From the NCBI RefSeq assembly GCF_009831455.1, contig NZ_WOWO01000002.1, forward strand, positions 806,001-870,000: a DNA stretch of 64,000 bases, given 5' to 3'. The DNA comes from Salinirussus salinus (GTDB lineage Archaea > Halobacteriota > Halobacteria > Halobacteriales > Haloarculaceae). Shown piece after piece: positions 44,686 through 58,599 of the stretch; position 1 is the stretch's first letter, and each line of letters starts with the position of its first letter. Made by a program: the position numbers and the translations under genes. The notes beneath the pieces are model-generated. The model saw only the letters and a program-made list of their open reading frames with translations, searched no databases and was not told where the DNA came from.

Positions 44686-44710
44686 GCATGCGCGGTCCGG
44701 GATCCGAACC
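44686..44710 (-). repeat. Downstream copy of the tRNA-Gly 3' end
   Basis: On the minus strand this stretch repeats the T-arm and acceptor end of tRNA-Gly(TCC), including CCCGGACCGCGCATGC, with one mismatch in 25 bases. It lies 126 bases downstream of the genuine 3' end (44812-44836). It includes the four bases beyond the tRNA. Confidence 0.8.
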
Positions 44711-44736
44711 GAGCGGAGACGGTCCGCCTGCGGCGC

Positions 44737-44780
44737 GATGCGCCGGTCCGGGCTGCGACTCCCCGGGCTCGAACCCGGGG
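44737..44780 (-). repeat. Degenerate tRNA-Gly-like T arm between the two 3'-end copies
   Basis: GATGCGCCGGTCCGGG (44737-44752) resembles the tRNA-Gly acceptor end with one inserted base. CCCCGGGCTCGAACCCGGGG (44761-44780) is a perfect stem-loop shaped like a T arm. Together they look like an older, rearranged third copy. The rest of the 44586-44814 gap holds no gene. Confidence 0.5.
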
Positions 44781-44814
44781 CGATGCCACTCCTCGCTGTC
44801 GCTCGAAGAGAGCA

Positions 44815-44887
44815 TGCGCGGTCCGGGATTCGAACCCGGGCAAGTGGCTTGGAAGGCCACTGTCCTGACCAGCTGGACCAACCGCGC
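44815..44887 (-). tRNA. tRNA-Gly (anticodon TCC)
   Basis: The 73-base minus-strand tRNA has acceptor GCGCGGT/ACCGCGC and discriminator A. The anticodon stem AGTGGC/GCCACT holds loop CTTCCAA (anticodon TCC), and the T arm reads CCGGGTTCGAATCCCGG. No CCA is encoded. Its 3' end is repeated downstream at 44686-44710. Confidence 0.96.
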
Positions 44888-53038: not shown

Positions 53039-53064
53039 ACCGCGCGGACGGTAGGCCCGCGTGC

Positions 53065-53148
53065 GGTGGGGTGGCGGAGCGGCCTAACGCGCCTGCCTTG
53101 AGAGCAGGTGTCCGAGAGGACTCATGGGTTCAAATCCCATCCCCACCG
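53065..53148 (+). tRNA. tRNA-Ser (anticodon TGA)
   Basis: The 84-base class II tRNA has acceptor GGTGGGG/CCCCACC and serine discriminator G. The anticodon stem CCTGC/GCAGG holds loop CTTGAGA (anticodon TGA), the variable arm is long, and the T arm reads ATGGGTTCAAATCCCAT. It starts 26 bases after the preceding stop codon. Its 3' end is duplicated at 53293-53316. Confidence 0.96.
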
Positions 53149-53152
53149 TCAG
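53129..53152 (+). repeat. Direct repeat, copy 1 (3' end of tRNA-Ser)
   Basis: These 24 bases run from TTCAAATCCCATCCCCACC through the discriminator and four bases beyond the tRNA. They are repeated exactly at 53293-53316, 164 bases downstream. Confidence 0.85.
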
Positions 53153-53316
53153 ACTCCCTGCAGTCGTCTGACGAGCCCTGCCTCGCCTTACTCGGCAGGA
53201 CACCGTGAGTGCGCGGCGCATCAACGCGCCGCGCCGAACGTGACGTGGGATTTGAACTACGCGAGACGAACACAGCGAGTCTCGCCATCGAGTTCAAATC
53301 CCATCCCCACCGTCAG
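53153..53316 (+). repeat. tRNA-Ser-associated 164-base satellite unit
   Basis: The spacer between the two 24-base copies has a GC-rich hairpin (GCGCGGCGC/GCGCCGCGC type) and then the left arm GACGTGGGATTTGAA at 53242-53256. A stem GCGAGAC/GTCTCGC follows, and the unit closes with the right arm TTCAAATCCCA of copy 2, so it can fold into a long hairpin. The left arm is identical to that in the tRNA-Thr satellite at 57677-57691. It does not pair fully with the local T arm (GTGGG against CCCAT). Confidence 0.7.
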
Positions 53317-57075: not shown

Positions 57076-57557
57076 TGGTCACCATCGAGACCCCCGACGC
57101 CGACCTCGCCGAGACTGTCACAGACCTCTGGGTCGCGCTGGCGACCGGGCAACGCGAGTACGGCTCGCACATCCTGGCCGAGGAAAACCGGGCACGCATC
57201 CGCGAGCAGATCCTCCGGCACACCGTCGACGACACCCTGCTCGTGGCCCGCGACGGCGGTGTGGTCGGGTTCGCCACCGTCGAGCGCGAGGGGGGCCCCT
57301 ACGCCCAGAGCGGCGCCAGGGGACTCGTCACGAACCTCTACGTCCGCCCGGCGTTCCGCGGGGAAGGGGTCGGGTCGGAACTGCTCGCTGCCGCCGAGGA
57401 CCGGCTCCGGGAACTGGGGGTCGACACCGTCGCGCTGGAGGTGATGGCAGACAACGAGGGAGCCCGGCGGTTCTACCGGCGTGCGGGCTACGAGCCCCAC
57501 CGGCTGACGCTGGAGAAGCCAGTCGAAAGCGATACGCACTCAAGGGGTGACGAGTAA
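57075..57557 (+). CDS. GNAT-family N-acetyltransferase
   Basis: A 160-residue acetyl-CoA-dependent transferase. Motif A with the acetyl-CoA loop is LVTNLYVRPAFRGEGVGSEL at residues 85-104, preceded by the strand VGFATVE, and motif B contains VALEVMADNEGARRFYRRAG. The pattern is close to RimI-like enzymes, which acetylate amino groups of proteins or small molecules. The GTG start overlaps the CBS gene by one base. A CBS/GNAT pairing suggests an acetylation step responsive to nucleotide levels (inference). Confidence 0.92.
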   Translation: MVTIETPDADLAETVTDLWVALATGQREYGSHILAEENRARIREQILRHTVDDTLLVARDGGVVGFATVEREGGPYAQSGARGLVTNLYVRPAFRGEGVGSELLAAAEDRLRELGVDTVALEVMADNEGARRFYRRAGYEPHRLTLEKPVESDTHSRGDE

Positions 57558-57568
57558 CTCCCGGACGC

Positions 57569-57642
57569 GCTAGGGGAGCTTGGGTGGTCCAAGCACCCGA
57601 CTTGTAATCGGGAGTTCGAGGGTTCAAATCCCTCCCCTAGCT
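57569..57642 (+). tRNA. tRNA-Thr (anticodon TGT)
   Basis: The 74-base tRNA has acceptor GCTAGGG/CCCTAGC and discriminator T. The anticodon stem CCCGA/TCGGG holds loop CTTGTAA (anticodon TGT), and the T arm is GAGGGTTCAAATCCCTC. It begins 11 bases after the acetyltransferase stop. Its 3' end is repeated twice downstream at 101-base spacing. Confidence 0.96.
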
Positions 57643-57743
57643 CTTCTCCGCGAGCGACAGTGAGCGAGAACGGCGGGACGTGGGATTTGAATCAGGGAGT
57701 GGAGTAACACGGAACGACCGTGGTTCAAATCCCTCCCCTAGCT
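57643..57743 (+). repeat. tRNA-Thr satellite unit 1 (101 bases)
   Basis: The unit begins CTTCTCCGCGAGCGACAG and has the left arm GACGTGGGATTTGAA at 57677-57691. The internal hairpin CACGG/CCGTG has loop AACGA. It ends with a copy of the tRNA T-arm/acceptor half (TTCAAATCCCTCCCCTAGCT, 57724-57743). The left and right arms can pair over ten bases. Confidence 0.85.
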
Positions 57744-57840
57744 CTTCTCCGCGAGCGACAGCGAGCGGGAACGGCAGGACGTGGGATTTGAATCAGGGAG
57801 TGGAGTAACACGGAACGACCGTGGTTCAAATCCCTTAGCT
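57744..57840 (+). repeat. tRNA-Thr satellite unit 2 (97 bases)
   Basis: A second tandem unit differs from unit 1 by three substitutions and a four-base deletion (CCCC) in its terminal tRNA-like end. Near identity implies recent or homogenised duplication. The remaining 84 bases to the next gene hold nothing recognisable. Confidence 0.85.
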
Positions 57841-57924
57841 CTCCTGTGACGAGCGGACGCGAGGAGCGGGAACTGCGAGGGGAGGCGCAGTCCGCGAACC
57901 GAGCGGGACGGTCTCCGAGCCGGG

Positions 57925-58599
57925 TCAGTGCCCCGCCGGCACGCTTTCGACGACCGCGTTGATCAGTTTCGCTTCGGCCTTCTGGAGGTGTTCGCTCGCC
58001 GTGTTCGGCGCACAGCCGAGCTCTGCGGCGATCTCCTCGTGGGTGGTCGCCCGGGGCTGGTTGTAGTAGCCCAAGTCGACCGCCGTCTCGAGAGCCTCCC
58101 ACTGCCTGTCGCTCAGGTCCGAGGCCGGGTTCGCGCGGGCGCTGGGGAACCGGCCGACCTCCTCGAGCGTGACGTCCATCGCGTCCGGCGCCTCGTCGAG
58201 TACCGCCTGGAGCGCTCCGGAGTCACCGACCACGTGTCCGTGGATCCGCCCGTCCCGGTAGACCAAGGGTCGCCGAACGACCAGCCCGGCCCGGGCGAGC
58301 GCCTCCTCGACGACCCCGAACATCGGCACGACGTCGTCGCGCACGTCGAGCAGCGCGTACGAGCGAGCCGCGTCGACCGCCGACAGCGCCACGGACTCGA
58401 CACCCGGCGTATCCGTCGCTGCGTCCCTGAATCCGGCGACGTCGCCGTCGACCGCGTACAGGTGTGTCGTCGTCGCCGGGTCCGCCCGGTTCCAGTCCAC
58501 CGCCCGTGCTTCCTCCACGTCCGGCGAATCGAGGAGGTACGCGACGAACCCCGGGGACCGGTCGAGGTCCGGCCGTACCGTGACACGGATGTGTTTCAT
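57925..58599 (-). CDS. Bat-type HTH_10 transcription regulator
   Basis: The 224-residue protein has an N-terminal alpha/beta sensor-like region (MKHIRVTVRPDLDRSPGFVA) and a C-terminal HTH_10 domain: LSDRQWEALETAVDLGYYNQ, then ATTHEEIAAELGCAPNTASE and HLQKAEAKLINAVVES. This layout is the haloarchaeal bacterio-opsin activator (Bat)-like family of regulators. No PAS or GAF domain is present. Target genes are unknown; the divergent quinone reductase gene across the 233-base gap is a possible target (inference). Confidence 0.92.
   Translation of the reverse strand: MKHIRVTVRPDLDRSPGFVAYLLDSPDVEEARAVDWNRADPATTTHLYAVDGDVAGFRDAATDTPGVESVALSAVDAARSYALLDVRDDVVPMFGVVEEALARAGLVVRRPLVYRDGRIHGHVVGDSGALQAVLDEAPDAMDVTLEEVGRFPSARANPASDLSDRQWEALETAVDLGYYNQPRATTHEEIAAELGCAPNTASEHLQKAEAKLINAVVESVPAGH

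Follow-up and report, generated by a model that had tools for sequence, protein, structure and literature searches.

Short structured units behind haloarchaeal tRNA genes, with arms fitted to the host T-loop and copies of the tRNA 3' end

Three of the five tRNA genes in the window, i.e., the whole analyzed stretch of 64,000 nucleotides of Salinirussus salinus DNA, are followed by short units that contain a copy of the end of that same tRNA (Table 1). The array behind tRNA-Thr(TGT) had been noticed in a preliminary description as two tandem units, and its coordinates and repeat structure confirm the units of 101 and 97 nt, counted from the tRNA end and differing by a four-base deletion. The direct repeat of 101 nt (57621-57721 and 57722-57822) is 97% identical; GGTTCAAATCCCTCCCCTAGCT is present exactly at 57621, inside tRNA-Thr, and at 57722, and the copy at 57823 reads GGTTCAAATCCCTTAGCTC, minus the four bases. 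The sequence GACGTGGGATTTGAA, with up to two mismatches allowed, was seen three times compared to 0.09 occurrences expected per window, the third site being 53242. An Rfam scan of 57400-58000 returned nothing above the cut-off except the tRNA itself. Serial insertion, previously offered as a possible origin of the pair, gives way to tandem duplication, which fits neighboring units of such identity better; from the sequence, the pair looks like a single unit copied in tandem rather than two independent insertions. The units behind tRNA-Ser and tRNA-Gly were not noticed before. For the former, to which the site at 53242 belongs, GTTCAAATCCCATCCCCACCGTCAG is found both at 53128, in the tRNA, and at 53292, and the architecture is that of the Thr units with a different core.

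Table 1. Features of the three tRNA-linked arrays in the window (LA, left arm; int, hairpin core; hpA, trailer hairpin region).
Feature	Position	Strand	Remarks
tRNA-Thr(TGT), array host gene	57569..57643	+	ARAGORN; Rfam RF00005, 59 bits
tRNA-Thr tail, positions ~52-73	57621-57642	+	exact tail coordinates
Thr unit 1 trailer hairpin region hpA	57643..57681	+	position: tRNA end to LA
Thr unit 1 left arm LA	57682..57691	+	GGGATTTGAA, complement of T-loop and T-stem 3' strand
Thr unit 1 hairpin core int	57692..57721	+	class A (TCAGGGA...CGACCGT)
Thr tail copy 1	57722..57743	+	22 nt, exact copy of tRNA 3' end
Thr unit 2 hpA	57744..57782	+	
Thr unit 2 left arm LA	57783..57792	+	
Thr unit 2 core int	57793..57822	+	identical to unit 1 core
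Thr tail copy 2	57823..57841	+	GGTTCAAATCCCTTAGCTC, without four bases
hpA-like diverged sequence past last Thr tail copy	57842..57895	+	by eye; D3 repeat
tRNA-Ser(TGA), host of second unit	53064..53150	+	tRNA call
Ser unit left arm	53247..53256	+	
Ser unit core int	53257..53291	+	class B
tRNA-Ser tail copy	53292..53316	+	GTTCAAATCCCATCCCCACCGTCAG
tRNA-Gly(TCC), host of third unit	44815..44887	-	tRNA call
Gly diverged unit	44689..44814	-	beta-type core AGTCGCAGC...GACCGTCT at 44717-44760; tail copy 44689-44710

Representing the arrays by the grammar tail-hpA-(LA-int-tail-hpA)n, we define the following components besides the tail: (i) hpA, a variable hairpin region that begins at the tRNA 3' end; (ii) the left arm LA, which is complementary to the host T-loop and the 3' strand of the T-stem, with a fit that is at background past position ~66; (iii) the core int, usually a hairpin of 20-60 nt, in which internal-loop classes and terminal modules recur. 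The hpA-LA-int stretch measures ~80-150 nt and lies immediately behind the tRNA. Reading LA as an inverted copy of the entire acceptor arm was rejected, since the fit fades past the T-stem. In 116 of 180 first units, identity of the tail copy to the tRNA begins two nucleotides 5' of T54; the copy most often terminates within one base of the tRNA end, and in 99 of 128 units its match to the tRNA is perfect over 18 nt. Tail copies at L214, L217, L280 and L375 contain one additional base midway through the T-loop (TTCATAATCC, TTCACAATCC), and its position is approximately the same across different tRNAs.

Folding with RNA parameters makes the sense strand the more stable one in 110 units and the less stable one in 10 (mean MFE of -27.0 compared to -22.0 kcal/mol for the antisense strand), the hpA regions favor the sense fold as well (84:28), and DNA parameters agree with RNA parameters. 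This means that, as modeled, a single strand in the tRNA sense would fold, a result that fits RNA and single-stranded DNA alike. The inner helix is longer within units, at 4.79, compared to 4.21 +/- 0.09 with swapped partners (0 of 5000), and double-sided changes occur at 6 of 19 consensus pairs; such P values are strong and are not to be taken literally, because units of one class are kin and their independence is overstated. The hpA regions and cores recombine freely (L078, L073); thus, a fixed mobile unit is poorly defined. The orientation of the core is constant in 128 units save one inverted case, a tRNA-Ser unit whose core is flipped between its two arms in one of two species compared to the other (L149 vs L124; Haloferax denitrificans, H. 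prahovense), and free inversion of the core was rejected on this count. At six tRNA-Ser loci of Halorubrum (L243, L248, L249, L250, L256 and L329), differing cores contain, inside their terminal loop, a second small hairpin of approximately GTGCGAGGTGCGAGCGAAGCGAGCACCTCGATTGCGAGC.

The specificity of the left arm for its tRNA, the occurrence of common cores on different tRNAs and the spread of the family across haloarchaea were all absent from the preliminary description. Across the Salinirussus salinus genome, the left arms make 230 matches in total to their own tRNAs, compared to 203.6 +/- 4.3 with permuted tRNAs (0 of 5000). For example, the Gly arm GGGAATTGAA pairs with the target TTCAATTCCC, the Val (Val_cac) arm GGCGGATTTGAACC with GGTTCAAATCCGCC, and the Arg arm GGAGATTTGA with TTCAAATCTCC; arms of the sister genomes fit their hosts too (His, GCGAGAATTGAA for TTCAATTCTCGC; Pro, CCCGGATTTGAACC; Met, AGCGGATTTGAA). 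In 28 of the 32 cases in which the tail copy is mutated, the upstream tail, in most instances that of the tRNA, gives the better fit to the arm. The arm is thus not adjusted to a mutated tail copy, and the match looks either fixed when the unit arose or linked to the tRNA; judged from the sequences, it does not look upheld by compensatory change against the tail copy.

A survey of all tRNAs of the Salinirussus salinus genome found a tail copy behind 20 of 44 host tRNAs, and each of two sister-species genomes gave ~21 of 43; a control with the tails of other tRNAs gave 132 of 1890 matches, which come from chance or tail relatedness. A palindromic pattern for the family, GGGATTTGAA-N20-50-TTCAAATCCC, matched 49 of 97 relatives, whereas its reversed control had no match; nearly all of the matches lie behind tRNAs and run into a copy of that tRNA's acceptor end. 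A slightly asymmetric pattern was present in 41 of 53 genomes of Halobacteria compared to 0 of 242 other Halobacteriota. Among the loci examined, 107 of 120 pattern matches have a same-strand tRNA no more than 800 nt upstream, and the inspected exceptions mostly belong to intron-containing tRNA-Trp, -Gln and -Arg or to contig ends. Orphan units far from tRNAs were accordingly rejected as a class, being mostly these or tRNA fragments. When core-only patterns, free of arms and of tRNA information, were run on eight whole genomes, every hairpin core found followed a tRNA, apart from one core behind a tRNA fragment and one behind a protein gene; the remaining class A matches have no arms and look like background. 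A general haloarchaeal repeat was rejected too: nearly all core modules in 612 kb of sampled loci follow tRNAs, and the few others are coding background or contig ends.

The claim that the units are small, non-autonomous, placed at tRNA 3' ends and variable among relatives is supported, as is the existence of empty and occupied sites (described below), and the comparison across relatives revealed neither a fixed copy number nor random sites unrelated to tRNAs. The 15-mer proposed as a search probe, by comparison, is no family signature. It occurs in 6 of 391 genomes, i.e., in 5 of 390 besides Salinirussus salinus. Of these five, one match is a tRNA-Arg gene in reverse orientation, and the other four are genuine units that follow Leu, Arg, Leu and Gly tRNAs. 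The 15-mer is rare elsewhere because only its GGGATTTGAA part, the T-loop complement, is family-wide. The 15-mer does match in viral contigs. The arm pattern was not found in the viral contigs searched, and viral carriage was rejected. Outside Halobacteria, a metagenome-assembled genome ('bacterium' B30_G16, L092) has a tRNA-Ser with a similar tandem made up of the left arm GGGATTTGAA, a short core, a tail copy and a repeated AT-rich spacer, which may belong with the units described here or be coincidental. A cluster of many low-scoring tRNA-like genes (G000:C4:596052-597722) probably represents an array of tRNAs belonging to a mobile element or virus.

Cores are common to different tRNAs. In genomes G007 and G001, tRNA-Ser (LA TGAGG...) and tRNA-Pro (LA CCCGG...) share an identical core of 38 nt, and Arg, Lys and Leu tRNAs, whose T-arms differ, share an identical core of 26 nt. 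Around such cores, the left arm and the tail fit each host, and the adjacent hpA can be unrelated. In two sister genomes, the nearest core (at least 90% identical) sits on another tRNA in 17 of 51 units and on the same tRNA of the sister in 14.

Presence and absence could be compared at single sites. At tRNA-Glu(CTC), G007 has tail-TGCGAGACACG, whereas G001 has the tail, then hpA, LA and int, a second tail and TGCGAGACACG; the two differ by one unit of ~100 nt including the tail duplication, and their flanks are 92% identical. A second clean pair of empty and occupied sites is found at tRNA-Ser(GGA) (L253/L245), and at tRNA-Gly, G059 and G114 (96% identical) are set apart by a single 120-nt unit with the tail as its boundary. 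G153 and G027 are two units apart, with breakpoints within hpA homology, and the comparison with G041 (tRNA-Gly, genus g5) suggests, as far as the sequences go, differential loss from an ancestor with two units; therefore, such pairs leave gain and loss unseparated. Across 50 Halorubrum genomes, tRNA-Ser(GGA) has 0, 1 or 2 units of varying class. The orthologous tRNA-Thr(TGT) loci of the family are mostly empty, and between sister species with 96% identical upstream flanks the units turn over very fast.

Two units lie away from intact tRNAs. The first (L468, G000:C2:406159), the single example of an ectopic copy at a protein gene, is located at the 3' end of a coding sequence ending in ...DVVLHRFEAQ and the stop. 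Here, GGTTCGAAGCGCAGTAGCCAGTGCAGGGAGCGAAGCGAC is duplicated exactly over 39 nt, starting from the GG of the T-loop-like GGTTCGAA, with no identity leftward. If small gaps are allowed, its left arm (CTGC-CTTCGAATCC) matches its own site (4 of 5000 shuffles), and does so better than it matches a tRNA T-arm; the ungapped comparison alone is not significant (478 of 2000 shuffles). The second (L483, G032:C1:3347942) follows a 3' fragment of tRNA-Gly, in a 3-kb locus where no tRNA was found, the fragment probably being the far end of an integrated element. It lies ~3 kb from a tRNA-Gly whose unit has the same core. Together, the two units point to the T-loop sequence, and not to tRNA function, as the likely target, and suggest that placement at a fresh site is possible.

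On balance, we favor the reading that the units are miniature, non-autonomous, structured elements specific to Halobacteria, which insert at T-loop sequences and form arrays that are then remodeled by repeat recombination. This reading draws on what the sequences hold, i.e., the grammar, tRNA linkage, duplication, fit of arm to target, sharing of cores, presence and absence, and lineage limits, and from these we infer insertion as the direction of change, an enzyme, a folded intermediate and an origin of the arm fit. Insertion would take place at the T-loop consensus GGTTCRAAT, almost always within tRNA genes; the tRNA would be left intact, with hpA-LA-int placed directly behind it and positions ~52-73 duplicated on the far side. 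Because LA is the complement of the host T-loop and T-stem, LA-int-tail makes one sense-strand hairpin, and the folded sense strand (single-stranded DNA or RNA), with its duplex of LA and T-arm, may be the form recognized by a putative recombinase or transposase. The match of arm to target could arise by imperfect-palindrome correction at replication or by templating on the target at insertion. Later gains and losses of units would proceed by recombination between tails and hpA hairpins, while cores pass between arrays. A stronger version, possible but tentative, is that the element rewrites its own arm as the complement of every new target, such that the core arrives and the arm is copied inverted from the site, the non-tRNA site included.

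The units are too short for a gene. A Pfam scan of the ten ORFs neighboring the array revealed no recombinase; of PF00589 genes, the genome has seven and the window none, the nearest tyrosine recombinase being ~150 kb from the window. Autonomous long relatives were rejected, no long element bounded by tails having been found in the 8-kb loci examined; this weighs against the favored reading, as does the point that precise empty sites can also come from deletion between direct repeats. The main rival to insertion of an element is a passive origin, which we consider unlikely. According to this explanation, no dedicated machinery is involved: the arrays would be produced and maintained by template switching at the T-arm together with correction of quasipalindromes there, by tandem duplication and deletion between tails, and by ectopic gene conversion of cores, many tRNAs having lost units. 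Palindromes are known to undergo correction toward perfection, which counts in favor of such an origin, as do the observed differential loss and the deletions with breakpoints in hpA homology (G153/G027); moreover, LA and tail arms are common to the cores, and conversion could run over them. Conversely, the protein-gene copy, with its own fitted arm and exact duplication, requires insertion, near-identical cores adjoin unrelated hpA regions, and a general mutational process would not be expected to keep so strictly to Halobacteria and T-loop targets.

The turnover and the ectopic copy make a host-encoded structured RNA less likely, and we regard it as improbable. The trailer hairpins would be co-transcribed with the tRNA and act in processing, folding or regulation, with LA pairing with the T-arm or its copy; the better folding of the sense strand, the near-uniform core orientation (only L149 seen inverted), the covarying helices and the fit of LA to its own tRNA all agree with this. 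However, turnover between sister species is very fast at nearly unchanged upstream flanks, the Thr loci of the family are mostly empty, units sit on a tRNA fragment with no intact tRNA nearby (L483) and behind a protein gene, and LA is not adjusted to the mutated tail copy. The pocket-like internal loop also prompted an H/ACA-like guide RNA reading, a tentative one that was set aside. Scars of larger integrative elements, in which attL and attR were joined by internal deletion and then duplicated in tandem, are highly improbable: tyrosine recombinases do integrate at the 3' ends of tRNAs, with a duplicated 3' part as the result (PMC3119063; PMC9897764), and the extent of the tail copies is right, but the 8-kb loci hold no large tail-bounded intermediates, viral contigs lack the arm pattern, and att scars do not need a constant short grammar with a T-arm complement.

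If inserting elements are indeed the source of the units, about half of the tRNA genes in whole haloarchaeal genomes are occupied by an apparently undescribed element family. The units would then be a natural system in which to study tRNA-targeted insertion at the 100-nt scale; they bear on the evolution of tRNA 3' trailers, account for partial tRNA copies in haloarchaeal genomes, and pose the question of how the arm of one element can fit each target met. A search of open-access papers, with subscription journals and preprints outside its scope, returned no earlier description of the units. None of the known families tested or known to us has the unit grammar; the novelty lies in that grammar, and the mechanism we infer.

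Among the closest known systems is SMR-A of Haloquadratum, which is likewise ~110 bp long, haloarchaeal, devoid of its own transposase and of undescribed mobilization mode, with a strong preference for palindromic targets (PMC3119063). SMR-A has terminal inverted repeats, makes no target duplication and targets the palindromes of PATEs and IS605 (PMC3119063), whereas no such inverted repeats were seen in the units, which carry the tail duplication in every case and lie at tRNA T-loops. Inspection by eye revealed no inverted repeat of the MITE kind linking the start of hpA and the end of int. REPINs occur in intergenic DNA in general and are linked to RAYT transposases. Like the units, REPINs and REP elements are non-autonomous hairpin DNA, lineage-specific and present in many copies per genome. 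In contrast to these systems (PMC3116915), the units are restricted to tRNA ends and possess an arm specific to the target. In the architecture of integron attC sites, the R box has the consensus GTTRRRY; the units display an outer stem, an internal loop and a variable hairpin, and their GTTCAAA does not match this consensus. The likeness to attC and cassette arrays may extend to a folded single strand with inverted outer arms, unpaired loops and a variable terminal hairpin, to the repetition of a G|TT motif and to an array that begins at a fixed primary site. The units differ in that cassette genes are absent, the array is not adjoined by an integron integrase and the primary site is a tRNA T-loop; in the paper on archaeal integrons (PMC9668308), Halobacteria go unmentioned. 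Finally, tRNA integration by archaeal tyrosine recombinases (PMC8371274) resembles the units in that the 3' half of the tRNA is targeted, the tRNA is restored and its 3' part is duplicated, and the empty and occupied pairs and the unit boundaries display this same restoration with the duplicate at the far end. The inserts of these recombinases, however, are kilobases long and contain genes (PMC8371274), whereas the units are 80-150 nt long and contain an inverted T-arm.
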